IMG/VR virus record: IMGVR_UViG_3300014838_000033
Span: 1 to 44,738 of that record
Direction: 5' to 3' (one strand)
DNA length: 44,738 nucleotides
DNA from: a virus
Positions 4,324-25,227 of this stretch are shown here, piece by piece. The translations under genes and the position numbers were made by a program. Positions within the stretch are counted from its first letter, which is position 1; each line of letters opens with the position of its first letter. Below the pieces are notes generated by a model that ran no database searches, had not been told where the DNA came from, and saw nothing but the letters and a program-made list of their open reading frames with translations.

Positions 4324-5931
4324 ATGAGCAGACAGATTCTCAAAGGCGACGAAATCAGGCAGGCGGTTCTGCGCGGAGTCAACACGCTGGCCGACGCGGT
4401 GGTGTGTACGCTCGGTCCCAAGGGCCGCAATGTGATCCTCGAACGAAATCCGATGTGGCCGCCGGCAGTCACGAAGGATGGCGTGACTGTCGCAAAGGAA
4501 GTGCGGGATCTCGCGGACCCGTGGGAGAACGCTGGCGCGCACCTCATCCGCGAGGCGGCCAGCAAGACCAGCGACCAGGCCGGCGACGGCACCACCACGG
4601 CCACGCTTCTCGCCCAGGTGATCTACCAGAAGGGGCTGGAGGCATTAGCCAAAGGCGCGAACCCTGTCGCGCTCAAGCGGGGCATCGATGCGGCCGTGGC
4701 CGCGGTCGTCGAGCACATCAAGGCCATTGCGCAGCCGGTCGAGGATGACGAGACCATCATCCGGGTGGGCACCATTTCGAGCAACGGAGAGCGCACCATC
4801 GGCGAGCTGATCGCCCGGGCCATGAAGAAGGTAGGCCGGGACGGTGTAATCAACGTGGGCGAGTCCACGGACGCCGACACCACGCTCCAGGTCGTCGAGG
4901 GCATGCAACTCGACCGCGGCTGGCTTGCTGGTCCTTTTATTACCGATCCCGAGCGGCTTGAATGTGTGCTCAAGGAACCGATGATCCTGGTCACGGAGCG
5001 GAAGTTGTTCACCATGACGGACGAGATGAGTCTCGTATTCGCCGAGGTGGGCAAGGCTGGGCGGCCCGTGATGGTGGTTGCCGGAGACTACGAGCAGCCG
5101 TTTATCATCACCCTGATCCACAACAAGCAGTTGGGACAATTGAATTCGCTGGCGGTGAAGGCGCCGGCATTCGGCGAGGAGCGCCGGGTGCAGCTTGAGG
5201 ACCTGGCCATCGTGACCGGAGCATACGCTTTCACTGAAAACTGCGGACGCCCGCTGTCATCTCTGACCGTCAACGACCTCGGCAGCGCAGATAAGGTGGT
5301 TGCGCACGGGCACGACGCGACGGGGTACACGACTATTGTTGGCGGCCGGGGAGACAAAGCAAGGCTTGAGAAGCGCGTTGATCTTCTCCGGGCGCTGATT
5401 CCGGCGACGGAGAACGAGCTTCAACGGGAATTCCTGAAACGGAGGCTGGCGAGGCTGGCCTCTGGCGTGGCTGTGATCCGGGTGGGCGCCGCGACCGAGG
5501 GCGAGTTGAGGGAGAAGAAGGACCGCGTGGACGACGCGGTGTGCGCGACCAAAGCTGCGGTCGAGGAGGGAATCGTGCCGGGCGGGGGGAAGGCGCTACT
5601 GAGCGCGGTGGGCCGAGCCTCTGAGACCCTCCCGCAGAACGACCCCGATATGTTCGCCGGCGTTGACATCATTCTTTCTGCTCTGGAAGCCCCGATGCGC
5701 CAGATACTCAGAAACGCCGGCCTGGAGTCGGACAAAATAGTGACGAGAGCGCGCATTGCTCCGATAAACGAGGGCTACAATGCAGCCACTGACGATTGGG
5801 TGGACCTGGTGGCCGACGGCGTGATCGACCCGGCCAAGGTCGTCAGGTGCGCGCTCCAGAATGCAGCCAGCGTGGCGGCCCTGCTGCTGACGACCGAGGC
5901 CATGGTTGCCAGCTTTCCGGATAAGAAGTGA
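4324..5931 (+). CDS. groEL: GroEL-like chaperonin
   Basis: A 535-residue group I chaperonin, close to the usual 540-550. ATP-site motifs are intact: TLGPKGRNV (29-37), TKDGVTVA with D52 (50-57), GDGTTTA (87-93, D88), and the catalytic Asp region VDDAVCAT, where D404 matches E. coli D398. The equatorial C-terminal signature [16 protein letters not shown] is present and the apical domain has the [11 protein letters not shown] segment. The C-terminus ends SFPDKK and lacks the GGM-rich tail of most bacterial GroELs. It is divergent but looks functional. It sits 12 bases after the 80-residue gene, downstream of groES. Phage chaperonins fold capsid or other phage proteins; the substrate here is unknown. 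Confidence 0.95.
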
Positions 5932-8356: not shown

Positions 8357-8920
8357 TTAGAATTTGTCCCAGGCAATATCTGCTTCGATGGTTGGCGGTT
8401 CAGGATTGCGCGGAGTCGGCACGGTGGTCACGACCTCCTTGGTCTCAACGACACGGTGTGTGATGATCGTTGCCCCTTGCGGCCGGAAGATGCGCGCAGT
8501 TTCTTCCTGCGCCGCCGCGCTGCCGGCGTCGGGCACAAAGTTGTCGTCTATCAAAAGGCCGGTTCGCCTGTACCCCAGCTCGATCGCATTCACCTTGGGG
8601 GTGGCCAGGCTAGGCGTCTCCAGGAGTTGCTTGCGGGGAATGGTAACCACCGACATGAGTGCCCGGTCCAGGGTCTCGACGTTTACCACGCGCTTTTTGG
8701 CGATCTGCTTATCGATTTCGCCATTGATGTTCTGCATCCGGCGCTGAATCTCTTCGTGCACGCCCTTGCGACGGTAGAGCGTCATGCCCAGGCGCGCGGG
8801 GAATCCGGCAGCCACGGCAGCCTTGGCGGCGTCTCGGCATCCGATGTACTCATCGACGAACTTGTATTCCTCGGCCTTGAGCGGCGGCGGGGGCGCCTGC
8901 TCCAGTACGGATTCACTCAT
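8357..8920 (-). CDS. terS: Terminase small subunit
   Basis: A 187-residue protein lying 3 bases upstream of terL. Residues 15-50 form a helix-turn-helix-like region (EEYKFVDEYIGCRDAAKAA) typical of small terminases, which bind the packaging site and recruit the large subunit. A central helical section (55-100) would oligomerise, and the C-terminal 60 residues are variable and end in an acidic/aromatic tail (AWDKF) that could contact terL. The start overlaps the stop of the giant gene (ATGA). Function rests on the HTH region and the neighbour, not on a unique motif. Confidence 0.82.
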   Translation of the reverse strand: MSESVLEQAPPPPLKAEEYKFVDEYIGCRDAAKAAVAAGFPARLGMTLYRRKGVHEEIQRRMQNINGEIDKQIAKKRVVNVETLDRALMSVVTIPRKQLLETPSLATPKVNAIELGYRRTGLLIDDNFVPDAGSAAAQEETARIFRPQGATIITHRVVETKEVVTTVPTPRNPEPPTIEADIAWDKF

Positions 8921-11900
8921 GGCTCACCTTCTCCTTCCGGCTCCGCCTTCTGCCTCAAGGGATCGATGTACTCAAACCCGTAGCGTTCCAGTTCCTCTTC
9001 AAGTTTATCTGCCTCGCCAGTCTTGCCGCGCCCGTCAAGGTCGTCGATGTACCGGCTTAGTTGGTACGCTGCCCGATTTCGGTCAGCGCCACGGGGTGCC
9101 TGCCCAACAGGTTCTCCAGTGGGTTGTTGGCTCACCAGCGCGCGTCGCTCATCCTCTGTTGACTTTTGGTAAACCCGATAGACCTCCTGTGGGTTCATAC
9201 CGTTCACAGCAAAGACGATGGGAGGCCAAAGGATAGCCTCTTCGAGTTCTCCCTCCTGGCCCTTCGTCAGTTTGCCAGAGTCCTCCAAGGCGTCCGCGAG
9301 GCGCGTGTCGTTGCCGCTAGAACGGCGAGCTTGTTCTGCCGCTGCGAGGATCGACTGAAAGACTTTTGACTTTTTCGGGTCGGGCGGATTCGGACCTTCC
9401 TTGTCGCGTCGGATCTCGGCCGCCTCTTTTAGGCCATGTTCCATCGGGAAGGTAAAGCCAGCCAATGCAAAAAGCGCCTGCTTCCCCTCGCCTTGATCCA
9501 CGCGCCCCGCGAGTTGGCCGGGAAGCGAACGTTTACCGATCCAGTCTGCGAGCTGCTTCGTCTTCCCGGCTAAATCCTGGTCCGTGCCGCGGATATGGCG
9601 GCCGGTGAAGAAGTCGCGATTGGCAATCATCTCCATCAAATTCTCTGTGCCGAGAGCGGGGGTGAATACGCCGGATGCGGTTGAACTCCAGTCACGTTCG
9701 CCGCGAGACGATTCGTAGACATTTGACGCCAGTCCAGGCAAACCACCGCGCGGGAACTTGGCGCGATCATCGCCCGTCAGTTTCTTGGCTAGGGGGTCAA
9801 GCACAAGCGGGTAGAGCGCCGCCGCCATCGCCGCGAGAACGGCTAGCTTGACAAGCCCCTGCGCGCGCATTTGCGTCTTGCTGGCGCCAAACTCATTCTC
9901 CCTAGGCGTGCTTTCGTCTTCCTTGAATCCAGCCCCGGCCGCGTCGCCTACAGCCGTAGCGACCTGGCGCAAAAGATCGGAGTGATACGCCCAGAATGCA
10001 GAGAGCTTTGGATTTTCCAGTGCCTTCTCGACCCCGCGGCTGCCAAGGAATCGCACCGGAGGACGATACTCGACCACTTGTCGATGCGCCCAATCGCGCG
10101 CCGCACCCTCGGGATCAGGCACGCCGTCTTTCTCGAAACGGTCGAGCGCAGAGTAGTAGGCTTGCAGAGTGAGCAGGTCATTCATCCCAAAGGTCGCCGT
10201 GTGGTTCGCGCGGCGGATCGCGCCCAGTGCATCGCCGGGAAGGTGCAGCGCCTTCTGCCAGAAAGAGAGCAGGTCTTTGTCGGCTGCCAAGTGCGCGGCC
10301 AGGGAACGGACCATCTCCTCCTGCTGATCGTCGAAGTTTGGATTTGTGCGAAGAAGATCGAGCCCCTGTTCCAGCGGGTGCAGATAGTCCTCATTCAGGG
10401 ACCAGACGGCATTGAGCGCGCGCATCCCAGCTTTGGCGTTGGCGACGTAGCGCACGGGATTGAGGAGCCTTCCGGACGCGATTCCCTCCGACAGCTTGCC
10501 CGTGATCCAGTTCGAGACCACATTCTTGCCGTGCATCAGGGGGTTCATCAGGACCATCTGCACGTTGAAACGGTTGATCCTGTCGAGAATGTCCGGAGTG
10601 CCTCGCGTCATCTTCTCTGCAAACTGGTCGTAAGCGTCGGCAATGTGCGGCGGGAATGAATAGCCGCGCATCTGCATGAGCTGCGTTCCCTTCCAGCCGT
10701 CGGGGATCTTGCCGGGGTCCGTCTCTTTCGTCGAAAGCCCTTCGCCTTCGAGCATGGCCTTCTGCTTTTCGATGGTGACGGCAGCCTGCGCCGCGCGCGC
10801 GGTTTCAAGATAGTTCACCGCGCTCGACAGGATGGCATTGTCGTAATACTTCTGGCCCGTGCGACCGGAAATGAATTCCGTGGTTCCACGATTGAACTTC
10901 CAGAGTCCGCCGAACTTGTCTTGCCAGTAGCGGCCCTGCAATCCGTCCTGCGTGTGCTGGTCCTCGATGTCGCCCTTCTGTGCTTCGAGTGCAGCAATGC
11001 GCTTGGAGTTCCGGTCGAGGCGCTTCTCCTGTGCTGGGGTGCGCGTCTTTATTTCACTTAGCCGCTGGCTGTCCTTGGTGATCCGGTCGATCTGCGCTTG
11101 GACCGGCCGCAGGCGCTCAGCGAGAATCTCGCTTTGACTCAGACCCTCTTCCGCCGCTTGCTCGGGTCCGATAGATGCGCGCACGGCGGCGATCTGCTTG
11201 GTCAGGTCGGCCTTTTGGACTTCGATGTTTCTGAGCCGCGCATTGGCGGCAGACATGCGGGACGGCGTGGCGCGGAGTATCCGCTCCTCTGTCTCAATCT
11301 TTTCCAGCTTCTTTTCGAGCGGCTTGACCGCTTCGTCCGCGAGATCGTTGGTGGTCACATAGCCGGAACGGTGGGCGCCAAGGTCGATGCTGGCGATGCC
11401 GCCCCCCTCAACGTCGGCGCGCTTCGCCTTGAGCGCCCAAATCTGATTCTGTACGGTTTCGATGCGCTTCTCGTTCGGTTTCTTCGCAGCCTTAGCGTCG
11501 TTAAGATCGTCCTGGAGGTCGGCGATCCTGGTGTCGAGCATCCCGGCATTTGCGGAGTTGATGAACTGCCGCACCCTGCCGCCCTTGATTGCGACAACCT
11601 CACGCTGGCCATCAGGGCTGTGCGCTTCCTGAAAGACCGAATGCTTGGACGCGGAATACGCTTTGCTCAGCACGCTCTTGCTGCCGCTGAATCCCTTGCT
11701 CACCCCGGCCATGATGCGGTCAAGTTGCGAGTTGTGCCCGGCGGCGATCCGGTGCATGTAGCCATCCACCATCGGTGCGTACTTGGCGATGTCGGCTTTG
11801 CTCACCTTGCCGTCGAGGATGTCCTGTAACTCAAACTTGCCGGTCTGGATCAGCTTTGCAATCGTGTACTGCTTCTGCGCGGCTTCATTCAGCGGGACGA

Positions 11901-14900
11901 TGTAATTGTCGCGGAGTTCGGCCTGCTTCGACGTGAGCTTTACGCTTGGGTCTTCGACGTGGCGGAATACCTGCTTACCGTCCTCCGGCGTGAATCCTTC
12001 TTTCTTGAGGATGCGCTCAATGGTCTGGATCACGCGGACCTGGCGCGCACGCTGGGCACGCTCGGTGTAGACGAGACCCTTCTGGACGGCCTCGGCGGTG
12101 CGGCCCTCGGATGCGTAGTGCTCAAGCGCCTTGGCCAGCGGTGCGGCCATATCCTTGATCGGCTCTATGATGAACCGGCGGTAGGCTTCGGGGTCGGCGA
12201 ATGGGTTTGAATAGAAGGTGCTGCCGAGCGACGACGGGGGTTCTTTGGCGGCTTTCTCTGCGTTCGCGAGATTCTCTTTTGCTGCGTCAAGCTTCTCTTG
12301 AAGGAACTGCTTGTCCTTCGCTTCGGCGCGCTTGAGGTCCTGCTCGGTCTCCTCGATTTCCGCTTTGAACTGCTGAATCAACTTTGCCGTATCCAGTTCC
12401 TTCGGCGCGAGGTCTGGATAATCCTTGAGAACTTCGGGGTCTACTTCTTCACCCCGTTTGAGAGCGCTTTTCACGGCGTCCTGGTGGTAGCCCTCATAGT
12501 CGGAATAGGGAGCATATCGCGTGCCGGATTCTTCGCTCTGACCCATCGCGCGGCGGGCAGCGCGCTGCAGGTTCGTCCAATCGTCGCGGGTCACTTGCTC
12601 CGGAGCGTAGCCGTTTCGCTCAAACTCGTCGAGGTCCATCTTGCCAGCAATGGTGGCCACCTGCGCGGATGGCTTTGGCTCGGCAACCAGGGAGGCTTGC
12701 TTCTTCTCTTTCGACAGCGCGTCGTCGATCATCCCTTCGCCTGCGAGGTCTTCCGGCAGGATGGCTTTGCGCGCTCGGGCGAGAGCTTTCCCGGCTTCAC
12801 TGGCAGGTGGGATGTCGGCCTGTGTGTTGCCGAACTTGTGCTTGGTCGGCTCTACTTTTTCTTTCGATTTTTCGGTGGTCTTGGGAACTGGAGGATCTGC
12901 GACGATGACGGGGGGCTTTTCCTCTTGTTGGACCGGAGCATACTTCCCACGCATCGCGTCCATACGCTTTTGAATCTCTGCGTCGATCATCGGCTCCAGT
13001 TTGGCCCATGCCTCTCTGTTCCACCAGCCTGGCATCGTGGAATAACTACTCGGCGACTCGGCAGCGAGCCCTCCTTTGCCGAGTTTGCTGGCGACGTACT
13101 GCTCAAACAGACGAGCGAAAATTTCGCGCGGCTCCCTCCAGTAATGACCGAGAACAACCTGAACGCGCTCAACTTCTGCGCGCTTCTCTGGCGATAGCTC
13201 GTCGAGATTTTTGGTCTTGAGCATCTTGCCGACCTCGTAACTGTCGGTCATGCTCTTGAGCGCCGTGGAATACATTTGCTGCGCGGGGGAACTGAACCCC
13301 ATGCGCTTATCGGATTCGGAAATATACGCCGAACCCTTGACTGGCTTGCCACTCAGCGAAGGATAGTCAACCTTGGTTCCGAGTACGCGGCCCGATTCAT
13401 AATCGAGCCAGTGGCCTAACTCGTGCGCCAGCGCACGGATGGGCTTGCCGAACACGTCCGCGATTCCAGCCGAGATGCTGCGCTCGGCAGGGTGATACAT
13501 TCCGCCCGCGTCACTCAGGAATGGATGCTTGCCGTTCGTGTGAGAGATGGTCAGGTCAGTTCCGCGCATCATGTCGCGCAGCTCGGGACCGAGTACCTTC
13601 ACCAACTCATCCACGCCGCCGCTCACTTCTTTGGTTTGTTCCTCGGTGATTGGTTTGCCGTCCTGCCGCTTGACCTTATAGCCTTCCTCGGCCTGCATCG
13701 TGTCGTTGACGGCAGCAGAGCGATTAGCAAAGGAAGTGTGCATCCCTTTCTCGTACCGTTCGCGGGCCGTGACGGCGGTCTTGAACTCAGACTTCTGCGC
13801 AATGACCGCATCCGGAACCGGACGTCCCTGCGAGATGGCCTTCTTGACGGTCGCGAGATATTCGTCCTTGTACTTCTGCGCAATGCGCGGATCTTTGCTG
13901 CGAAGGCTCTCCAGTCGCGTCTTCCAAAAATGGAGAGTGCTTTCCTCTTTCGTGCGCGAAACGCTGCCAGACTTGAGCTTGTCAACCTCGGCCTGTTTCT
14001 CTGTGACGGCCCGCTCGTACCGCTGAATCTCCTGGTCGAACCGTTTGGCGATGAAGTCCGGCTCCAGCACCTGCCAGTGTTGCGACTGCGCAACGTCACC
14101 GTACTTCAGTGGTTCTTCCGGGCGCTCAGCAAACGGCTTGGCCGCAGCTTTCTCTGCAATCTCACGGCGCTCGGCACGGGTCGGTTCGCCGTTCAGCTTG
14201 GAGAGTTCATCCTCTTTGGCGAGAATCTGTTTTGTCAGTTCGACATTCTGATTGGAGAGCTTGGCTGACTCCGCAGTGAAACCGCCCGGCGACGCGGCGT
14301 ACTGTCTCTGGACCTCCTCGCGCTGCTTTAGGAGTTCGTCGATCTCGCGCCGGACGTCCGTCTTTTGCTCGGGGGTGCCCAGCGCAGTCGCAGGCTTAGT
14401 CTGAGGTTCCGTTGGCGTCGCCTTGACTTCACGGATCGGCTTGATCGGAGACTGCGCGCTCTGCTGCCATGAGAGGCGAGTCTCAGTCCCGTCAGGATGC
14501 GTGATGGTCGCTTGGTTGAACCCTTGAGTGTCCGGCGACGCAGCCCTGAATTTCTTGATTGTGCCTACCTCGTCCACGGCTTCGCGTCCCTTGGTGTCCA
14601 CGAATCCTTCGCCAGAGATCGAGACGCGATCACCGGGCTTAAACGCTGGCTTTACTTCTTTCGCAACATCCGTTTCCCGGCCCGGCTTTTCTCCGGCGGG
14701 TGTAACCGCTCCGGCAGCTTCGCCCCCTTCGGCGTGTCGTCCTCGAACCGCTGCGCCACTTTCGGGTCTTTCGCCCACAGCGCGCGGCGCATTGCCTGCG
14801 ATTTCATCGGCATTTGCTTTTTCCTCCTTGGAAACGTCTGCAACTGAATTGGCAGGCTGCTCTGCGCTGATCCGCTGTTCATTTCCGGTCTCCTTCTCTG

Positions 14901-16986
14901 TTGCCAAAGTACCATCTAAATCCACATAGAGCGCCTTCCCCGCCGGAATCTGCGGGATCTTGAGCGCCGTATCTTGATTGGTCGATGTGTTGACCTCGTT
15001 ATCGATCAGTCCGCCGAAGTCGTGGCCCTTGACGTTGGTCACCGGCAGATTGCCGAGGCCGTGCTGCTGGAGCCACCGTTTGACCTCTGGATCGGCTCCG
15101 CGCGCGGTGAATATCTTGACCGGCGTTCCCTTGGCCGCGATGTCCTTGATCTGCTTAACGCGCTCGGGGAGCGGTGCGCCGACCGGGCCGGGAGCCTGCG
15201 CAGCCTTTAATTCCGATCCTTTGAATGTCTTTGTGCCGCTGGGTGTCTGGACGACGACGCGGCCCCCGCCTGAATAGTTGGGGTTGATATGCTGGACGGT
15301 TCCACCGCTGCCATCGGGGAGCGTGACGGCTGCGCCTTTGACGATAGGGGCCGGTTTCCCAGCCCCACTCGTCTGCTCTGGCGAACCGCCCTGCTTTCCC
15401 TCGCTGGCGACTGTGCGAGCTTCATCGAACTTCGCTTGAATCTTAGCACCGATCTCATCCGCTTTGGCCTTATCGCCAGCGACCAGCGCCTCTTTTTGCT
15501 GTGCATAAAGCGGGTCGGTCTCCGTCATCGCGTCGGCGACTTCCGGACTTGGAACCACCTGGAGCTCCGAGATCTGGTTCGCGTCGCCCGGCGCGCCAGT
15601 CTTCACACCGTACTGCGGGATGTCGAGACCGTTATTGTCGATCTTATCTTTCGAAGCAACGGGCAACTGGCTTTCAATGGCCTGCTGCACCGCCGGCACA
15701 GCGTCGGGATTTGGCGCGACGACGCGCACGCCCAGGTTGTCGATATTGGTTTCGGGCGGCTTGCCACGGTCTTCCTTGTTCTCGATCGAGTCCTCAGACT
15801 TGACGCGCGGCCCCACCACATCAGCGCCCGGCACAGCAGAGGCAACTGCCTGCGCCATGCCGTCAAGGTGCGGTTTCTGCTGCTGGGCCGACTTGCGGAG
15901 TTCTGCGGGGTCCGTAGATGCCTGAACGGCTGGACGGGCGCCGGTCTCGTCGATGGGTTTGCCGGTAAGCGCGGCCTCCGCAGTGGCCATCTTGCCCGTT
16001 GGCGCGGAGGCTTTGGGGATCGGGATGCCTTCGCCTTCGATCACCGCTCCCGGCTTCGGCGCGGGGGCGCCGGGGGTGCGCGCGTCCGTAAACTCCGCGT
16101 CCTTCGGAGCTGGTCCGGAAGGCGCGGGCGCGGGAGGCTGTCCCACGTACTCCGCTTCGACCGGCGCAGGAGGCGCAGGAAGCGCCTTCGGCTCGATGGG
16201 GATCTCGACATTTGGACCGGGCGGCAACGTGCGGTAGCCCTCGCGCATGACGCCTCTGCCGAAGTGTGTCCCGGCGATTCCAGCAATGACGGCATTCAAT
16301 CCCGATTCGGTGAGATACTTCGCCGCTTCCGGATTGTTCCCGGCGCGCCATGCCTGGTAGGCCTGCTCGGCATTGTCGAAACTTCCTTTGGTGGCTTGGG
16401 CCGCGAAATATGCGCTGATGAGTTTGGATTCTGGAGCGACGGCGAGCATGGCGAGGTTGGCGGGGGAAGTCAGACCGGCGGCCACCTGGCCGGCGCCCTG
16501 GTTTACCGCATCGAGGATGTCGCCGGTAGCTTTCGTCTTGGGGTGGGCCGCGAGCCATGCTGTCGCGGGCTGCGTCGCATCGCGGAGCCGCGCATTGGCC
16601 ACCTGCTCCTGCTGTGGATTCGCGGGGATTGCCTCGGGGTCCTGCTGCTCGGGGCTGCTGGCAAGTGGCTTCTGCGCCCATTCAGGGAGAACATCGGGCA
16701 GATTAGTTCTGGCTCCCACATACCCCGTTGGCTCCATGCCGAGGACGCGACCAACGGCGCTATTGCGGATATTCTGGCCGACCCGTTGAAGGTATGAGGG
16801 CGCCGGGGCTGCCTCTACTGTGTCAATCGGCCGAGGAGCAGCCAGAGGGGAGGGCTGCGTTGCCTGTGCAACCGGCGTGGCTTTCGGCAGCGGTACCGCC
16901 GTGCTCTCGTCCCACTCAGGCGCGGCTTGCTGCCCCTGCACAGGAACCGCCGTCGTTTCATCCCACTGGACCGGAGCCGTCGCCAT
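8917..16986 (-). CDS. Giant multidomain polyvalent protein (probable ejected virion protein)
   Basis: A single 2689-residue frame. Visible parts: a short N-terminal repeat (QWDETTAVPV 7-16; EWDESTAVPL 24-33); hydrophobic helices at 160-245; a Pro/Ala linker; a segment at about 395-490 resembling a RelA/SpoT nucleotidyltransferase fold (RVKSEDSIENK, LGVRVV, ISELQVV); a small beta-barrel-like piece at 547-593; HAD-phosphatase motifs in permuted order (VKIFTAR 623-629, IDNE 661-664, then YVDLDGT 687-693); another barrel-like piece at 780-845; coiled coils; a zinc metallopeptidase motif HELGH (1188-1192); a long coiled coil at about 1860-2005; and a hydrophobic segment near 2376-2400. Such giants (large polyvalent proteins) are injected with phage DNA. 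Place before terS and after two other virion-like genes supports an ejection protein. Domain calls other than HELGH and HAD are tentative. Confidence 0.88.
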   Translation of the reverse strand: MATAPVQWDETTAVPVQGQQAAPEWDESTAVPLPKATPVAQATQPSPLAAPRPIDTVEAAPAPSYLQRVGQNIRNSAVGRVLGMEPTGYVGARTNLPDVLPEWAQKPLASSPEQQDPEAIPANPQQEQVANARLRDATQPATAWLAAHPKTKATGDILDAVNQGAGQVAAGLTSPANLAMLAVAPESKLISAYFAAQATKGSFDNAEQAYQAWRAGNNPEAAKYLTESGLNAVIAGIAGTHFGRGVMREGYRTLPPGPNVEIPIEPKALPAPPAPVEAEYVGQPPAPAPSGPAPKDAEFTDARTPGAPAPKPGAVIEGEGIPIPKASAPTGKMATAEAALTGKPIDETGARPAVQASTDPAELRKSAQQQKPHLDGMAQAVASAVPGADVVGPRVKSEDSIENKEDRGKPPETNIDNLGVRVVAPNPDAVPAVQQAIESQLPVASKDKIDNNGLDIPQYGVKTGAPGDANQISELQVVPSPEVADAMTETDPLYAQQKEALVAGDKAKADEIGAKIQAKFDEARTVASEGKQGGSPEQTSGAGKPAPIVKGAAVTLPDGSGGTVQHINPNYSGGGRVVVQTPSGTKTFKGSELKAAQAPGPVGAPLPERVKQIKDIAAKGTPVKIFTARGADPEVKRWLQQHGLGNLPVTNVKGHDFGGLIDNEVNTSTNQDTALKIPQIPAGKALYVDLDGTLATEKETGNEQRISAEQPANSVADVSKEEKANADEIAGNAPRAVGERPESGAAVRGRHAEGGEAAGAVTPAGEKPGRETDVAKEVKPAFKPGDRVSISGEGFVDTKGREAVDEVGTIKKFRAASPDTQGFNQATITHPDGTETRLSWQQSAQSPIKPIREVKATPTEPQTKPATALGTPEQKTDVRREIDELLKQREEVQRQYAASPGGFTAESAKLSNQNVELTKQILAKEDELSKLNGEPTRAERREIAEKAAAKPFAERPEEPLKYGDVAQSQHWQVLEPDFIAKRFDQEIQRYERAVTEKQAEVDKLKSGSVSRTKEESTLHFWKTRLESLRSKDPRIAQKYKDEYLATVKKAISQGRPVPDAVIAQKSEFKTAVTARERYEKGMHTSFANRSAAVNDTMQAEEGYKVKRQDGKPITEEQTKEVSGGVDELVKVLGPELRDMMRGTDLTISHTNGKHPFLSDAGGMYHPAERSISAGIADVFGKPIRALAHELGHWLDYESGRVLGTKVDYPSLSGKPVKGSAYISESDKRMGFSSPAQQMYSTALKSMTDSYEVGKMLKTKNLDELSPEKRAEVERVQVVLGHYWREPREIFARLFEQYVASKLGKGGLAAESPSSYSTMPGWWNREAWAKLEPMIDAEIQKRMDAMRGKYAPVQQEEKPPVIVADPPVPKTTEKSKEKVEPTKHKFGNTQADIPPASEAGKALARARKAILPEDLAGEGMIDDALSKEKKQASLVAEPKPSAQVATIAGKMDLDEFERNGYAPEQVTRDDWTNLQRAARRAMGQSEESGTRYAPYSDYEGYHQDAVKSALKRGEEVDPEVLKDYPDLAPKELDTAKLIQQFKAEIEETEQDLKRAEAKDKQFLQEKLDAAKENLANAEKAAKEPPSSLGSTFYSNPFADPEAYRRFIIEPIKDMAAPLAKALEHYASEGRTAEAVQKGLVYTERAQRARQVRVIQTIERILKKEGFTPEDGKQVFRHVEDPSVKLTSKQAELRDNYIVPLNEAAQKQYTIAKLIQTGKFELQDILDGKVSKADIAKYAPMVDGYMHRIAAGHNSQLDRIMAGVSKGFSGSKSVLSKAYSASKHSVFQEAHSPDGQREVVAIKGGRVRQFINSANAGMLDTRIADLQDDLNDAKAAKKPNEKRIETVQNQIWALKAKRADVEGGGIASIDLGAHRSGYVTTNDLADEAVKPLEKKLEKIETEERILRATPSRMSAANARLRNIEVQKADLTKQIAAVRASIGPEQAAEEGLSQSEILAERLRPVQAQIDRITKDSQRLSEIKTRTPAQEKRLDRNSKRIAALEAQKGDIEDQHTQDGLQGRYWQDKFGGLWKFNRGTTEFISGRTGQKYYDNAILSSAVNYLETARAAQAAVTIEKQKAMLEGEGLSTKETDPGKIPDGWKGTQLMQMRGYSFPPHIADAYDQFAEKMTRGTPDILDRINRFNVQMVLMNPLMHGKNVVSNWITGKLSEGIASGRLLNPVRYVANAKAGMRALNAVWSLNEDYLHPLEQGLDLLRTNPNFDDQQEEMVRSLAAHLAADKDLLSFWQKALHLPGDALGAIRRANHTATFGMNDLLTLQAYYSALDRFEKDGVPDPEGAARDWAHRQVVEYRPPVRFLGSRGVEKALENPKLSAFWAYHSDLLRQVATAVGDAAGAGFKEDESTPRENEFGASKTQMRAQGLVKLAVLAAMAAALYPLVLDPLAKKLTGDDRAKFPRGGLPGLASNVYESSRGERDWSSTASGVFTPALGTENLMEMIANRDFFTGRHIRGTDQDLAGKTKQLADWIGKRSLPGQLAGRVDQGEGKQALFALAGFTFPMEHGLKEAAEIRRDKEGPNPPDPKKSKVFQSILAAAEQARRSSGNDTRLADALEDSGKLTKGQEGELEEAILWPPIVFAVNGMNPQEVYRVYQKSTEDERRALVSQQPTGEPVGQAPRGADRNRAAYQLSRYIDDLDGRGKTGEADKLEEELERYGFEYIDPLRQKAEPEGEGEP

Positions 16987-18645
16987 CTATTTCACAACCC
17001 CAAGGTCTTTCTTCCCGGCGTCCCGATAGTGGTATTGGTTATCGGTGCCGAGGGCCATGTCCACCGCTCCCTGTGGCGCTGGCGCCGTGGGCGTCGGAGG
17101 CTTGGGCTTGTTCGTCGCCTGCTGCCCCTGCTGGCGCGCAGCTCTGCCGCTGGGTTTGCTCGCACCTGCGTCGGCGGGGTCGAACCGCACCCCGAGCTTC
17201 GGCATTTTCTTCGCCTCAAGTTGGCTATCGAGTTTGGTCGAGATTTCATTCTTCCTATCGGTAAACTCACTCGGGTCGAGCACGTCATTCGGGTTGCTTT
17301 TATTCACGTATTGGTTGCGGCGCGGGTTGTATTCGTACTTGTCCTGAAGCGCCTGAACCTGGGCCGTTGCCGCGTCAATCATCGACTGACGAAACGCGCT
17401 CTTGTCCGGCTGATTGCCGTTAGCAAACTGAAACTTGCGGACCTCAGTCGCCGCCATCTCTCGCGCAGCCTGTGCGTAGGCCTGCGCCTTTTTCGGGTCC
17501 TTTTCCAATTTGGACGCGATAACGGCCTGCTCATAGGTCGTCGGCATCTTGCCCTGGTTAAGGGTGTCCTGCACCTGTTGCCTGAGGTCAGCGAGCTGCT
17601 GCTGGACGTCGGCGGATTCTTTCCGGGCCTGCGCAACGTCGACGCGAGACTGCGCAGTTTCTCCAGCCGCGTAATTCTTCCCGATGTCGTTGATTGAGGT
17701 GATGACGTCCTTCGCGCGCCCCGTGTCCTCCTTATAAGCCTCGGTAGTCATCGTCTGTTGCTTGTCGAGCGCGGCTTGCTGCGCCTGCTGTTGTTGCGCT
17801 GCGATCGAGAATTGCCGTGTAGGCGCGCTGTAGGGCGTGGCTCCGACGGCCTCGGGATCGAGACCGCCCAGAAGCCCTCCACGAATGCCGCCGCGCGCTA
17901 CGCCCTCGCCGACCGCGGCCAAACCGCGGAGAATGCGCCTGCCAGCCGTCGGCCTGTACTCAGGGTGCGCAGGGTCGAATTCCTGCGGGGGAAGCGTGCG
18001 CTTGGCTTGGATCGGCGCAAGTTCTTCCGCGAGGGTGGGCTGCGCCGCCAGTTTCTGCGAGAACGACTCGGCCATCTCGCCGGCGCGCTGAATGCCCTGC
18101 TGATTCGGGTCTTCTGCTGTACCGCTGGGAGTGACGGCAGCAGGCACCGCAGGGGTATGGCTCGCCTCTGATGGCGGATTAGGTGCATTAGTTGCCGCTG
18201 GCGCGCTCTGGGCGAGGTTCGCTCCGAAGTCGGTTGGTGCAGCTCCGGGGCTGGGAAGCGGCGGAGCGGTGAGCACCCTCGACAGGGCCGTTTGCCGATC
18301 CGACGGACTAGGCCCCTGATGCGACTGCGCGAGGGCCGCGCCCATGCCGTCCATAGATGAAGGAACCGTCGCGGGCTTTCCGCTGGGCATGATGGCATTC
18401 GGAGGCTTTGAGGGTTGCGCCTGCGGCTGCATCGCCGCCGTCCCCGCTGGACTCGATGCGTTCGACCCCACCGCTGGATTCGCGCCGCCGCTGGGACTCG
18501 GCCCCGTCGGAAGAGGAAGCCCCATGCTTTTGGCCTGCGCGAGCGTGGCTGGATCGCCAGAGAGCAAGCCGTCGATGTCGAGGCCGGAAGCAGCCAGGGG
18601 CGCAGCGGCGCTGAATTGGTAGTCTTCGCTATCTGTCGTTACCAT
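16987..18645 (-). CDS. Probable internal virion protein, low-complexity and coiled coil
   Basis: A 552-residue protein, starting at the ATG at 18645 after GGGGGAGACC. The first 230 residues are Pro/Ala/Ser-rich and probably disordered. A glycine-rich helix follows (RRILRGLAAVGEGVARGG, about 245-265) that could insert in a membrane. Residues about 290-430 are Gln/Ala-rich and helical (a run of QQQQAQQAALDKQQ), likely coiled coil. The C-terminus is basic and proline-rich. This composition and its position directly before the giant protein match T7 gp15-like or P22 ejection proteins that travel in the capsid and form a DNA conduit. No enzymatic motif is visible. Its start overlaps the previous gene's stop by 17 bp. 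Confidence 0.8.
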   Translation of the reverse strand: MVTTDSEDYQFSAAAPLAASGLDIDGLLSGDPATLAQAKSMGLPLPTGPSPSGGANPAVGSNASSPAGTAAMQPQAQPSKPPNAIMPSGKPATVPSSMDGMGAALAQSHQGPSPSDRQTALSRVLTAPPLPSPGAAPTDFGANLAQSAPAATNAPNPPSEASHTPAVPAAVTPSGTAEDPNQQGIQRAGEMAESFSQKLAAQPTLAEELAPIQAKRTLPPQEFDPAHPEYRPTAGRRILRGLAAVGEGVARGGIRGGLLGGLDPEAVGATPYSAPTRQFSIAAQQQQAQQAALDKQQTMTTEAYKEDTGRAKDVITSINDIGKNYAAGETAQSRVDVAQARKESADVQQQLADLRQQVQDTLNQGKMPTTYEQAVIASKLEKDPKKAQAYAQAAREMAATEVRKFQFANGNQPDKSAFRQSMIDAATAQVQALQDKYEYNPRRNQYVNKSNPNDVLDPSEFTDRKNEISTKLDSQLEAKKMPKLGVRFDPADAGASKPSGRAARQQGQQATNKPKPPTPTAPAPQGAVDMALGTDNQYHYRDAGKKDLGVVK

Positions 18646-19672
18646 GGTCTCCCCCTGCTTGTGCGAGGCGGCTTCCAATCTCGCCCCACTCCTCCATTGG
18701 TACGTTCCGCTCTGCATCGCCAACGCCGAGCGACCAGAAACCGTCCGCCAGGTACGTGTGTGAGCCGTCGGTGATGATGTTGAATACCTCGGCCACTCCA
18801 TCAGGCTCGACGCTGATTACACGGCTGGGCCCGTCCGAGGTGAGGATCGTCTTGCCCATCGACTTCGCAGCTACTGCGAAGCCACCGATCGGAAGCGCAA
18901 AGGCGTGGACCGCCGAGGTCCTGACCACAAACCCGTTCGCTGCCGTGGTGCGCAGGACGGGAAGAATTGCCGTCTGAATTTCCTCAATCAACTGATCCTC
19001 ACCGTCGATACCAGCGATGAAGTCTCCGATTTCGAGGTCTTCAACCCTCCGCTGGATTCCGCCGCATGCGAGGTAGATCGTTCCGCGCGCCGGGCAATAT
19101 GCCGTGACCGCGGCCGATCCAACCTGGCCCGCCCCGCTGATCAACCCTTGTCCCAACTCGTCGAGGAAACTCGGCGTTTGCGCGGCCTGCTCTGCCGTTC
19201 CCTCCTGGCCCTGTGCCTCGCCAGTGAGGTTGCTTGAAAGCTGCGCTTGCTGTGCCGCGATGGAATTGCCAGCGCCCAGCACCTCAGCCCCGTATTGCGC
19301 GCCCGAAGCAAGACGGCTTGTGGTCGCTCCAGCTTCTTCGCTCGACAGACTCCGCTGGGCCGCTTGCTGCTCGGCCTCTCCGGCTGCGACCGGAGCCGCC
19401 GCATTCTGACCCGTGCGCTGGGCCTGCTGCTGATTCTTGGCCGCAGCGGCTGCCGCTGTCGCGTCGGCGGTATTCGACAATTCCTGATTCTCAGCGGTTT
19501 GCATCGTGCCGCCCTGGACGTAGGGATTGTCGGCCGCAAACTTAGCGAGCTGCGACTGATTCTGGTTGATGTCCGCCTGCTCCTCAGCCTGCGACGTAGT
19601 TGCGGCCGTAGTCGACGCGGCGGAATCCGCGGACTCAGTGGACTCGATAGCTCCCTGCTGGGCTCTAGACAT
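18629..19672 (-). CDS. Virion-type protein with C-terminal Hint (intein-like) domain
   Basis: A 347-residue protein in two halves. Residues 1-190 are Ala/Gln/Ser-rich and helical, ending in a glycine/alanine hydrophobic stretch (GQGLISGAGQVGSAAV), as in internal virion proteins. Residues 193-320 look like a Hint domain: C193 starts CPARGTIYLACGG (block A); VEDLEIGDFIAGIDG follows; T252-S-A-V-H256 is the block B TxxH; and VFNIITDGSHTYLADGFWS (296-314) matches block F. The terminal His-Asn of true inteins is missing, so only N-S acyl shift and cleavage before C193 would be expected, as in hedgehog or BIL-type domains. GGGAG precedes the ATG. Function in the virion is unknown. Confidence 0.85.
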   Translation of the reverse strand: MSRAQQGAIESTESADSAASTTAATTSQAEEQADINQNQSQLAKFAADNPYVQGGTMQTAENQELSNTADATAAAAAAKNQQQAQRTGQNAAAPVAAGEAEQQAAQRSLSSEEAGATTSRLASGAQYGAEVLGAGNSIAAQQAQLSSNLTGEAQGQEGTAEQAAQTPSFLDELGQGLISGAGQVGSAAVTAYCPARGTIYLACGGIQRRVEDLEIGDFIAGIDGEDQLIEEIQTAILPVLRTTAANGFVVRTSAVHAFALPIGGFAVAAKSMGKTILTSDGPSRVISVEPDGVAEVFNIITDGSHTYLADGFWSLGVGDAERNVPMEEWGEIGSRLAQAGGDHGNDR

Positions 19673-20108
19673 TGGTTTTCTCCCTTAGATCCTTGAAAAA
19701 ATGCGCTAACCGATGGTCGTTCTGCTCAAATCCAGCGAACCCGAGTGGCTTGCGAACGTGGTCAGTGACCAAAATCGGTACGTCGCAATGGAGTCCGGTG
19801 TAGCCGAGCCAGGACAGGAACCCCGCCATCGCCTCGATGTCCCGCCGCGCAAACGCCGTCGCCTTGGGGTCGCAACCTGCAAACATCAGCTCCGCCCTGC
19901 GCTCAATCCAAATCGCCTGCACGGGATCGTCCGACCCCTCCTCCACTCCCACCAGCGAGGCTGGGACCTGCTGCGTGGGACAGCCGTTTTTATCAAAGAA
20001 TCTAGGAAGAGGATAACTGGTCCCGTCGCGCTCGTTTTGTTCCACGTGAAACCGGCGGATAAAGTGCATGTCAGTCAATCGCGCCTGCCGCAAAATGATC
20101 GGTCTCAC
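19665..20108 (-). CDS. Unknown protein, possibly GNAT acyltransferase-like
   Basis: A 147-residue protein opening MRPIILRQARLTDMHFI, a pattern like the R-x-A-x-x-x-D start of GNAT acetyltransferases. It later has FLSWLGYTGLHCDVPILV and KPLGFAGFEQND, which could be the C-terminal strand and helix of that fold. The acetyl-CoA loop (Q/R-x-x-G-x-G/A) is not clear, so the assignment is weak. Small GNAT-like proteins occur near tail and internal-protein genes in several podoviruses. It overlaps the Hint-protein start by 8 bp and the 127-residue gene stop by 4 bp. Confidence 0.7.
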   Translation of the reverse strand: MRPIILRQARLTDMHFIRRFHVEQNERDGTSYPLPRFFDKNGCPTQQVPASLVGVEEGSDDPVQAIWIERRAELMFAGCDPKATAFARRDIEAMAGFLSWLGYTGLHCDVPILVTDHVRKPLGFAGFEQNDHRLAHFFKDLREKTNV

Positions 20109-21554: not shown

Positions 21555-24500
21555 CTACGGAGTCTCCGCGGCCAGCCGACCCTGGAACATGGGGCTGATG
21601 AACACGCAACTATATTTCATCGAGAACCACGCATCCGGAACCGCGCCATTATCGTACCGCACTCTCCACCGCTCATTGAGCTTCGAGGGAGTATTCCGGC
21701 TGATGCCCTTGCTTGGGTTCAATTCAAGCTGAATCGGCTTCAACTTCACCAGCCAATTCGGCTGCGGTGTGCCGTCCTGCCAATCCGTCACCCTGCGCGC
21801 GCCGGCGATAAACGACACGTTGAGCGCGCCGTTCCCGCGCGCATTCATGTTCAGGCCCTGGAGCTTGCAAAGAGTCATCATCTGCTGCGCGGCCACGCTC
21901 TCATACTGGCAATCGATGCCGGCGCCGTTATCGTTATAGATTCCCGGACTCACCGCCTGCACCGTCCCATCAGGACCGGCGGAGGCAATCAGAAATTGCG
22001 AGATGTACTGCTGCGCTGTTTGCTCGTTGATCGAGACCGGCCCCTCATTCGGGATCGGCTCACCGGTGATCGTCCGGTAAACCCGCTGGCCGAGGTATCC
22101 CTGGATGTTATCGACCGAGAATTTGCGGCACTGCTCGATCGTGATTTCCTTGCCCGAGTAGCGCGAGAACAGAAGCGGGTTGTTCCAGCCTTCCTCGTAA
22201 TTCAGCGTCAGGATCACATTCGGAATGGTACTGTTCCCGACCGGGAAGCCCATCCGGACCTCGTGCTCCTGCTCGTCGATCGCGACCCAGATGCTTTGGG
22301 CAGCAGTCCAGTTGATCGTGTTCCACCAGCGCGGCAATTCCTTCGATACGAGCTCCGGAGCGGTCTGTTCGTATTTCCAGACACCTGAGCTGTGCACGAA
22401 AATCATGAACCGCCCGCACACGTCCACGGCGCGCGGGCCGCACGGCCCCACCTTCACCCAGCGCCGCGTGACGCTCCAGGTCGACGGATCGGCAGTCGAA
22501 GGAGATAGCTCGAATCCCGACCGCTCGCGCAGAGAGTAGAGCACGCCCTGATACTCGCGCACGCACCACGCGCGCTCGCCGTCATCGGTCCCAACCTCGA
22601 TTACACTGGTGTCGCCGTAATAACTCTCCGGATCAGCGGCCAGCGAGACCCAGTGGCCTGAATAGAATCCCGGCACGCCGGTCTGGAAGATGCGGTCGAC
22701 GGTTGCGGAGTAATAGATGTCGACGCACTGCTGGGGCTGAATCACGCGCAGCCGGTCGGTGATGTCAAGGCCTCCAGCGTCCGAGCCCAGCAGGTATTCG
22801 TCGGTGAAATTGACGGTCGCCGATGACGTCCCATTCGGGAAGATGGTGGCGCTGATGGGGATGAAGTCGGAGACAGTCGCCTGGTCGATGTAGGCATAAG
22901 GGCCTGCGCTTACACCGTCAGCCACCGTCAGGCCAAGAATCACGTTTTGAATGTAATTCGGCCCCGTGGGCATATTGAATACGGACAACTCCCAGCCGTT
23001 TTGATCGACGATGCAGGAGAAGGCCGCGGCCTGGCGAATTCCAGAGACGGTCTCAAACTCATCCATGAAGGCGATGATGCCCCACCGATAGCCCTGCGTC
23101 CCGTTCGGGCCGCCCTGGAGCGTGTCTTGCGGCACGTTGCCGGCCGTTCCGGTCGTATTCATCACCGGAGGCGGGCCGCCCGTGGCGGAATCGGTGATCG
23201 TCGCGATGGCGCCATTGCCGAAACTACCGACGAGGGCGAAGTCGCCGAAGGGTGGGAAGTCGTTGCCGTCAAACGTGGTCCCGGTCGGCACATCACACTC
23301 GTAGAGGTTGACGCCCGTCACCGCGTACCCCTCCGGGAAAGCCACATTGACCACAACCGCATCATCGAGCAGCGTATCAACGATCGAATTGGCTGGACCA
23401 GGAAGCGTCTCGCCCAGCGCATTTGTGTAGGTCTGGAGCACGTACACATCGCGGCCCGCGGCGAATGTGCCACCGCCAGCAGAGCGCGTGATAACCGGCT
23501 CGACGTCGGGTGTGGGCAACTGCCCACCTGTGATGCGCGCTGAATTATTGCTCGGAGGGACCGCGCCCACCCCCACCGCGGTCACGCCGTAGAGCGTCCC
23601 GAGGGCGACGGGCGTCGAATTGAACCGCTGATACATCGTAAGCTGCGGCGCGGGTGAGCCGTGCGCCACGGCGGCCACGTAGACGTTTGCTGCGGTTGGA
23701 ATGTACTGAGCGGGAAGGCCTCGAATCCATCCGGCCAGCGATGCCAGTGTTGGCACCTGGACATTGACCGTGGTGGTGGGCGCGGCGGGATTGAGGAAAA
23801 CGGGAATCGAGGGGAGAGATTCGCCGATCGAGTTCAGGAAGGTGATAACGATGTAGACGTCGCTGGTATCGTCCCACGTCCCGCCGGCTGCAACCTGCGA
23901 GAGCACCGGAGACGCCGGCATGGGCAGCGCATTCGCGAGGACCGGTGTCTGCTCTTTCCACGTGGCCGGGGTGAGGCCAGCTGCAATCTGAGCAGCAGAC
24001 AGCACCTCAACGACCATGCCGCCCTCAGTGAGAGGCCAAACCGGCTGAACGGGACCTGTTGCACCAGCGACGGTGCAGATATAGAGATGGCCATTGCCCA
24101 CCGCGACCGTAACGCCACTCTGCAACTGCGACGGCGTGCAGCACTCGCCCTGGAGGATCTGGCCGTAGCCGTACCATCCAAACCCGACCGGCTTCATTCC
24201 GTAGGGGTAGAGATTGCCCGATTTAAGGTCGTAGGCGGCAGGGTAGGCCGTTGGGGTGAGCAGATCAGAGAACGACATCCAGGCGTGGTTATAGGCCTGC
24301 GTGCCGATCATGTGAGACTTGGTGGGAACCGCGACAAGGCCCGGCGCGATGGCCACCGTCCGCCCTGTCCCGGTGGGATTTTCTATCTGTAGGGAGCCCG
24401 CGTAGTCGTAGAGCAATATGGTCTGAAAATAGCTTTCAAGCGCCGACTCCGGGGTGTACGCGCACCCCAGAAGTCCAGTAATCGCGCTGAGATTCTTGCC

Positions 24501-24668
24501 CTGGATGGCTGTCTGGATCCCGTAACGGGTCTCGACTTCGGTGAGGTTGAACCGGCAATTCTGTGCGAGGGCCGCGCAGCCCATCGGCAGATTGGTGGGA
24601 TCATCCTCATCGACTAAGCCCAACCAACGCGAGAACTCGATCTTCGAGGCTTCGCCATAATTGCTCAT
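21555..24668 (-). CDS. Large tail protein (tail hub/tubular type)
   Basis: A 1037-residue beta-rich protein, the largest structural protein of the connector-tail block. The start (MSNYGEASKIEFSRWLGLVD, then LPMGCAALAQNCRFN and VETRYGIQ) resembles podovirus tail proteins in which an early segment collects virion partners. Two similar beta-sandwich domains follow at about 258-350 and 395-495, both with GGTxxxxxDVYVxxTxxNxxGExLP. The C-terminal 450 residues have WD- or propeller-like repeats (GVLYSLRERSGF, GRFMIFVHSSGVWKYEQ). This layout resembles T7 gp12-type nozzle proteins; I infer a tail nozzle or hub. No enzymatic motif. The ATG lies inside the 3' end of the HNH homing gene. Confidence 0.8.
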   Translation of the reverse strand: MSNYGEASKIEFSRWLGLVDEDDPTNLPMGCAALAQNCRFNLTEVETRYGIQTAIQGKNLSAITGLLGCAYTPESALESYFQTILLYDYAGSLQIENPTGTGRTVAIAPGLVAVPTKSHMIGTQAYNHAWMSFSDLLTPTAYPAAYDLKSGNLYPYGMKPVGFGWYGYGQILQGECCTPSQLQSGVTVAVGNGHLYICTVAGATGPVQPVWPLTEGGMVVEVLSAAQIAAGLTPATWKEQTPVLANALPMPASPVLSQVAAGGTWDDTSDVYIVITFLNSIGESLPSIPVFLNPAAPTTTVNVQVPTLASLAGWIRGLPAQYIPTAANVYVAAVAHGSPAPQLTMYQRFNSTPVALGTLYGVTAVGVGAVPPSNNSARITGGQLPTPDVEPVITRSAGGGTFAAGRDVYVLQTYTNALGETLPGPANSIVDTLLDDAVVVNVAFPEGYAVTGVNLYECDVPTGTTFDGNDFPPFGDFALVGSFGNGAIATITDSATGGPPPVMNTTGTAGNVPQDTLQGGPNGTQGYRWGIIAFMDEFETVSGIRQAAAFSCIVDQNGWELSVFNMPTGPNYIQNVILGLTVADGVSAGPYAYIDQATVSDFIPISATIFPNGTSSATVNFTDEYLLGSDAGGLDITDRLRVIQPQQCVDIYYSATVDRIFQTGVPGFYSGHWVSLAADPESYYGDTSVIEVGTDDGERAWCVREYQGVLYSLRERSGFELSPSTADPSTWSVTRRWVKVGPCGPRAVDVCGRFMIFVHSSGVWKYEQTAPELVSKELPRWWNTINWTAAQSIWVAIDEQEHEVRMGFPVGNSTIPNVILTLNYEEGWNNPLLFSRYSGKEITIEQCRKFSVDNIQGYLGQRVYRTITGEPIPNEGPVSINEQTAQQYISQFLIASAGPDGTVQAVSPGIYNDNGAGIDCQYESVAAQQMMTLCKLQGLNMNARGNGALNVSFIAGARRVTDWQDGTPQPNWLVKLKPIQLELNPSKGISRNTPSKLNERWRVRYDNGAVPDAWFSMKYSCVFISPMFQGRLAAETP

Positions 24669-25227
24669 CTGGGAAGTTCAACCTCGCAAACTCGCCAAAG
24701 CAATGAGACGCCGCTATATCGTAGGCGCGCGCCGCGGGTTCTACCTGACGGTAGGTTCCGAGGTAGTAGCGCACCCGGTTGACAGTGATTGCGGACTCGT
24801 ACGATTCTGTGCATCGCGCCTTTCGGTAGACACCTTTGTACTTTCGTCCCGACCGAGGACGACAGTTTGCCCCATTTGTGGACCGATTCGAGGGTCGCAG
24901 ATTCTTGCGCCTATTATCCCAACCACACAGGTTGATGTGATCGGCACGCGGCCCGCAAATCTCCGCGTGCATCACGACGGTGCTTGGCCCAACGCCCGAA
25001 CGATTGGGACGCATAGCGTAATAGGTTTTGCCGCAGTGGTGTGGCCGAGCCTGCCACTTATGTTCATTCAGCCAATCAAAATCGGCCGCGTCAACGATCG
25101 TGAAAAGGCCACGGGTCAACGGGATGATCCGGCAATATATCCCATCGATTTTGAAAGGCTGCGCGTCGGCCATCTCCAATCTGAAAACATCGGGAATGAG
25201 CCGTGCTAGAGTTGAGACTTGGGGCAT
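24607..25227 (-). CDS. HNH homing endonuclease with AP2-type DNA-binding domain
   Basis: A 206-residue protein. Its HNH-like region has VVMHAEI (H near residue 91), ADHINLCGWDNRRKNLR with the D-H pair and N, and TNGANCR. The C-terminal part, YKGVYRKARCTESYESAITVNRVRYYLGTY and the following AARAYDIAA, is an AP2/ERF-like DNA-binding domain. HNH-AP2 proteins are mobile homing enzymes common in phages. A near-perfect ribosome-binding site (AGGAGG) lies 8 bases before the ATG, so it has its own strong translation signal. It sits between two structural genes and overlaps the start of the tail gene by 62 bp. Its last 20 residues run into the tail gene. Confidence 0.92.
   Translation of the reverse strand: MPQVSTLARLIPDVFRLEMADAQPFKIDGIYCRIIPLTRGLFTIVDAADFDWLNEHKWQARPHHCGKTYYAMRPNRSGVGPSTVVMHAEICGPRADHINLCGWDNRRKNLRPSNRSTNGANCRPRSGRKYKGVYRKARCTESYESAITVNRVRYYLGTYRQVEPAARAYDIAASHCFGEFARLNFPDEQLWRSLEDRVLALVGLSR

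Follow-up and report, generated by a model that had tools for sequence, protein, structure and literature searches.

What might an intein-like Hint domain do at the end of a phage protein when nothing behind it could be spliced on? The question is raised by a viral stretch of 44,738 nucleotides (IMG/VR record IMGVR_UViG_3300014838_000033, analysed whole and called the window here), in which a gene lying among presumed virion genes encodes a helical core followed by such a domain. The original prediction had a Hint domain begin at C193 of a probable ejection protein. The gene starts at an ATG at 19672, directly behind a plausible ribosome site, AAGGGAG, at 19680–19686, and its parts are as follows.

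18629–19672, minus strand: whole Hint gene, 347 aa (P0001); helical core, Hint domain and short tail
19097–19672, minus strand: core, residues 1–192; Ala/Gln-rich, helical in the predicted model
18710–19096, minus strand: Hint domain proper, approximately residues 193–321, from alignment, PDB profile, Pfam and AF2 model
19094–19096, minus strand: C193, the Hint C1 and block A nucleophile; invariant in five of five homologues, preceded by conserved T-A-[F/Y]
18905–18922, minus strand: block B, R251-[TC]-S253-x-V-H256 (S-x-x-H), from alignment and PDB profile
18752–18787, minus strand: block F, V296-F-N298-I-I-T-D-G-S-H305-T-Y307; N298 and H305 invariant
18725–18733, minus strand: S314-L315-G316, with Leu-Gly in place of the intein penultimate His and terminal Asn, from alignment
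18632–18715, minus strand: conserved tail behind the Hint core, A320 to R347; helix 326–344 predicted at low pLDDT

Identity of the C-terminal domain

That the C-terminal domain is a genuine Hint domain can be regarded as settled, since profiles built from its relatives, the AF2 fold and sequence matches in the PDB all agree. Taken singly, the sequence has a weak match to Pfam Hom_end_hint (E 0.08, domain residues 1–38 only), a search of the window with PT-HINT (PF07591) gave zero matches, and single-sequence Hint patterns found no relatives in viral contigs. Together with four distinct viral contigs that carry the domain (L011, L007, L008 and L015, at 58–73% identity and so differing at 27–42% of positions), all five homologues match Hom_end_hint, the best with E 1.6e-7. 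A profile of the five run against all PDB chains gives 14 matches, of which 13 are to inteins, to a BIL domain or to proteins that contain a Hint, and the closest BIL, 2lwy of C. thermocellum, covers most of the domain. An alignment-based Hint search returned the same four viral contigs only, and none in bacterial genomes. The AF2 model of the domain, from the five sequences, has pLDDT 70.5 and pTM 0.67, and of the PDB structures matched by Foldseek (E from 3e-7) the best 50 belong without exception to inteins, BIL domains or Hedgehog domains. By VIA-align it superposes on the gp41-1 intein with Z 14.2 over 124 residues; the comparison with BIL and Hedgehog folds that had been proposed as a check gives Z 12.7 for each (2lwy and 6tyy). 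Modelled at full length, the protein has pLDDT of approximately 72–93 across the Hint and a helical core with pLDDT mostly below 50; the fold search was made with the model of the domain.

Superfamily motifs are present in all five homologues: the block A Cys1, a block B of the [TS]xxH type with Ser, and the block F His accompanied by Asn. C1, S253, H256, N298 and H305 are invariant, as are 68 of 159 gap-free alignment columns. The start at C193 and the block F-like motif thus stand as first read; block B, taken at first for TxxH, is really S-x-x-H, position 252 varying between Thr and Cys. The terminal His-Asn was rightly called missing, being Leu-Gly in every homologue; the gene ends at most 35 residues further on, and a +1 nucleophile and C-extein are absent. 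The first reading put the domain at the protein's end with no extein after it. An extein is indeed missing, but the gene runs to 18629, not 18712, and the domain is not quite terminal, a conserved tail of approximately 26 residues lying behind it (A-E-R-x-V-x-M-x-x-W-x-x-I-G, in five of five, mostly helical in the model). The Hint end itself reads W-S-L-G-V-G without variation in the five homologues, then [DE]-A-E-R, and the T-A-[FY] ahead of C1 is kept along with the domain in all Hint-bearing homologues. By pairwise dN/dS (0.05–0.29 for the Hint part and 0.07–0.15 for the core, rough values given that dS is near saturation) the Hint part is under purifying selection.

Among cultured phages, tblastn matches best to the tape measure protein of those infecting Ruegeria (E 0.5; E 2e-5 in a two-sequence comparison with the Ruegeria segment, C1 aligned on C1), the similarity opening precisely with C193 and extending almost to the end. 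In phage DSS3-P1 (L001, 4387–9621) this protein has, inside its TMP_3 domain, a mini-intein from C539, of the form C...HHN|T, which looks complete, from C539 to His-Asn and then Thr, and is annotated without comment. A second cultured match, in Achromobacter phage 2-1, is to a Hint that ends its protein and lacks His-Asn.

One core protein in three forms

Relatives were gathered from uncultured viral contigs, 13 loci by way of the 1037-residue gp12-like neighbour and others with the Hint protein itself and its neighbour genes as queries. Over approximately 190 residues the core is 59–74% identical in nine related contigs, domain-less ones included, and it comes in three forms. The window, L011, L007, L008 and L015 have core and Hint. 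L004, L013, L014 and L022 have the core alone, of 191–196 residues, ending where C1 would begin. L003 has the core followed, from C185, by a domain starting CWVAAATFGG that resembles CFI-box-CTERM (NCBIfam NF041770); no match to the L003 protein was found among cultured phages.

How did the three forms arise? In a tree of the gp12-like protein the window, with Hint, pairs with L004, its closest relative at 81% identity, which has none; L014 (none) groups with L015 (Hint), and L010 and L003 (CFI) with L022 (none). The well-supported branches force at least three changes of C-terminal state. The placement of L013 is unsure, its gp12-like reading frame being broken: from 10001 the frame breaks after 422 residues while similarity runs on to 1037, a frameshift that may be real or due to assembly. 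Identities among the Hint domains rank in the same order as those among the gp12-like proteins, a parallel that favours vertical descent and suggests repeated loss of the domain rather than repeated gain. The domain is optional, apparently lost several times among close relatives and swapped once for the CFI-box-like domain, and its repeated loss implies that it is not essential; it has the look of a processing module that the protein can do without. Inspection by eye showed no partner gene travelling with it: the genes immediately beside it are the same whether or not Hint is present.

The gene slot and its other occupants

The order in the window is the gp12-like gene (1037 residues), genes for 360, 137 and 147 residues, the Hint gene, a gp15-position gene, a giant gene of 2689 residues, and the small and large terminase genes.

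21555–24668, minus strand: gp12-like protein, 1037 aa, in tail nozzle position; named from gene order, its weak PHROG matches being head/structural
19665–20108, minus strand: neighbour on the upstream side, 147 aa, conserved whether or not a relative has Hint; likeness to acetyltransferases judged by eye alone
16987–18645, minus strand: gp15-position protein, downstream; real start probably the ATG at 18645, overlapping the Hint gene end
8917–16986, minus strand: giant gp16-position protein, 2689 aa
6812–8353, minus strand: large terminase; best cultured matches Pelagibacter phages HTVC104P, HTVC103P and HTVC115P, approximately 30% identity

No Pfam match supporting acetyltransferase identity was found for the neighbour genes. 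Searches of bacterial genomes and of cultured phages with the gp12-like protein gave no matches. The giant protein has a weak match to LPD1 (large polyvalent protein, E 4e-4). An HNH endonuclease gene (24607–25227, minus; PHROG 99, E 5e-23) within the structural cluster overlaps the start of the gp12-like gene and is possibly a homing insert, and the window also encodes a GroEL-type chaperonin (4324–5931, plus; PHROG 5725, E 9e-146).

Proteins of the gp14 type have approximately 200 residues (181–240) and are encoded beside gp15 with the larger gp16 next; they diverge widely in sequence, transmembrane helices are reported for them, and in T7 the protein encoded at this place forms the outer-membrane pore (PMC8954989). 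The Hint gene has the same placement, ahead of gp15- and larger gp16-position genes and with a core near 200 residues, which fits the probable ejection protein of the original prediction; the sequence does not lend the same support, the 347-residue protein having no PHROG match, and neither it nor its relatives a PHROG match to gp14 or another internal virion protein, in a class where divergence is wide. A simple Kyte-Doolittle scan predicts no transmembrane helix in the core (maximum 19-residue hydropathy 0.86). With no gp14 homology found and no strongly hydrophobic stretch in the core, the protein is to be called gp14-position, not gp14. What it shares with T7 gp14 and podovirus ejection proteins is slot, core size (approximately 190–200) and predicted helicity; it differs in having no detectable sequence homology, and the review mentions no gp14 intein (PMC8954989).

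In L003 the CFI-box-like domain stands where other relatives have Hint on this core protein and likewise has Cys at its start, yet CFI-box-CTERM is an unrelated domain of 65–70 residues. Against NF041770 the L003 domain scores, from its first Cys, E 0.0021 and 17.9 bits, under the curated cut-off of 40; a profile built from 108 distinct viral domains of the CWVAREVYG type selects, among 2129 ORFs, the L003 protein and overlapping copies only (E 3.6e-7). A scan with the CWVAREVYG pattern shows that at least 120 viral proteins carry a CFI-box-like domain (loci L033–L152 and L256:7102–9222). Among the matches listed, those with a complete frame have it as their last 63–95 residues behind a Gly/Ala/Ser-rich stretch, the 30 residues before its Cys having a median of 53% G+A+S against 31% elsewhere; a later gene of at least 450 residues follows at 73 of the 90 listed loci with at least two readable downstream genes, usually preceded by one of approximately 160–800 residues. 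Most of these CFI-box proteins thus occupy the same slot as the Hint protein, before presumed ejection genes, and so it is in the cultured Puniceispirillum phage HMO-2011, where gp25 bears the CFI-box ahead of gp24 (164 residues), gp23 (502) and gp22 (1128). A search for other swaps on common cores, which matched the N-terminal regions of 89 Hint-bearing proteins with those of 117 CFI-bearing ones, gave a single short, chance-like match, so the case for a Hint/CFI swap has as its basis one family and the common gene slot. As far as checked, this alternation at one site is a new observation; no paper using the term CFI-box was found among open-licence papers, which makes that a weak negative.

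Hints with other cores recur in viruses. A block scan of viral sequences gave 103 stretches, with C-terminal Hints devoid of His-Asn on several unrelated proteins. One of these comes from a contig unrelated to the window (L201:10360–11769, minus): 469 residues long, it contains a glycine zipper by Pfam (E 1.3e-4), ends in a Hint lacking His-Asn (E 4.7e-5 to Hom_end_hint) and is encoded ahead of genes for proteins of 141, 382 and 2906 residues; no cultured match to it was found. Since so unrelated a contig also has a Hint there, Hint has probably entered the gp14-position slot more than once. The tail-fibre-type ends of Achromobacter phages JWF and 2-1, together with L201, L162 and L206, resemble the window's protein in having an HN-less C-terminal Hint on a structural-type protein, and differ in their cores; among them the gp14 slot was seen for L201 only. 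Tandem C-terminal Hints end the structural-type viral proteins of L187, L229 and L195, the first closing with HNKG and the last lacking HN in L187 and L229. Phage inteins are known in TerL and RNR (PMC3556154), those of TerL being noted elsewhere also (PMC5259590). The DSS3-P1 mini-intein and other phage inteins (TerL, RNR, helicases) have a homologous Hint, C193 falling on the C1 of DSS3-P1, but there the C-terminal end is intact and a C-extein follows, so that splicing is to be expected.

Proposed processing and its alternatives

The reading we prefer, at about an even chance of being right, is that the gp14-position protein is an ejection-type precursor whose Hint, like those of Hog and B-type BIL proteins, forms a thioester and frees the 192-residue core without splicing. 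The protein would be made as helical core plus C-terminal Hint; the Hint would shift the bond after residue 192 (Tyr or Phe) onto C193 (the N-to-S shift), and the resulting thioester would be resolved from outside by water or a small thiol or amine, to release a core equal in length to the proteins that naturally lack the domain. Cleavage would presumably be timed at assembly or ejection, and the protein would be packaged in the virion. Judged by its residues, this Hint cannot splice: C1, S-x-x-H and the block F His are kept while His-Asn and extein are gone, so that the N-to-S shift with external resolution should be the sole intein chemistry left to it, in line with the thioester formation or N-terminal cleavage originally predicted. 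Such is the chemistry of B-type BIL and Hog domains, and B-type BIL domains, though without the C-terminal motif, still cleave on their N-terminal side (PMC7765530). In favour of core release, domain-less relatives of 191–196 residues end at the C1 position. Against it, block B has Ser and block F Asn, at positions often taken by Thr and Asp in inteins; the core is without gp14-type hydrophobic segments, gp14 or PHROG homology was not found, and the domain has been lost repeatedly. The precursor could also persist uncut.

Kinship with B-type BILs extends to the Hint fold, the intein motifs bar the C-terminal one, the N-terminal cleavage to be expected, and an optional presence at variable protein ends; BILs of this type, however, are described in nonconserved bacterial proteins (PMC7765530), and here the bearer is a virion-cluster phage protein. 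The Hedgehog Hog/Hint also is C-terminal and devoid of Asn, with a Cys nucleophile and an extra segment past the Hint core, but sequence identity is only 15–17% and the present setting is viral.

Would the thioester be spent on a particular acceptor? Of the readings in which the domain is active, this is the chief rival, as an idle tag is of the inactive ones. In a Hedgehog-like transfer a specific nucleophile (a lipid, a sugar or an amine of a virion protein) would attack it and leave the C-terminus of the core covalently anchored, for example in the outer membrane of the host or on a partner, with the tail serving in adduct recognition. The fold is nearly as close to Hedgehog as to inteins, a conserved and mostly helical segment lies behind the Hint core in five of five, the slot is that of the T7 outer-membrane pore protein, and several unrelated viral proteins end in HN-less Hints, one of them (L201) behind a glycine zipper in the same slot. 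We nevertheless hold transfer to be rather improbable: the domain-less relatives do without any anchor, no acceptor is known, and the sterol-recognition region of Hedgehog is long where the tail here is short. A chemically idle domain, staying attached as a tag for folding, dosage or packaging/targeting in alternation with the CFI-box, is an unlikely account too, in spite of the ease with which the swap for a small unrelated domain at the same place can be read as tag exchange and of HN being already gone; an idle scaffold has no need of the C1, block B Ser and His and block F His that are invariant through up to 42% divergence, and the CFI-box domain likewise starts with Cys.

Descent from selfish elements fares worse. 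That the best cultured-phage match is the full HN-bearing mini-intein of the DSS3-P1 tape measure protein would suit a degenerate mini-intein that had lost its C-extein and been kept by chance, yet the boundary and the altered end, W-S-L-G-V-G-[DE]-A-E-R, are conserved in five contigs at low dN/dS and no extein lies downstream, making this very improbable. An intein still splicing, in cis or in trans, has the intein-like fold alone to commend it and is scarcely conceivable with HN, +1 nucleophile and extein absent in all five homologues. The cis or split splicing intein was accordingly rejected, no second Hint copy having been found in the window or related records.

If the Hint works, a protein of a phage ejection cluster is made as a self-processing precursor, of a kind not described for short-tailed phages in the reviews and genome papers examined; nor was literature on Hint domains in ejection proteins found among open-licence papers, again a weak negative. 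The occurrence of Hint, nothing or CFI-box on one core gives a first handle on CFI-box-CTERM, a domain that ends many uncultured phage proteins, and the swap suggests that the CFI-box does a job equivalent to that of the Hint. A bolder extension, offered as a long shot, is that T7-type ejection clusters have, on the protein encoded ahead of the two large ejection proteins, a Cys-led C-terminal processing slot, filled by Hint or CFI-box, both of which would act on the bond or carboxyl before the Cys, the Hint transferring the core in Hedgehog fashion to a lipid or partner on entry into the host envelope. Were that so, the CFI-box would be a second, hitherto unrecognised self-processing domain.
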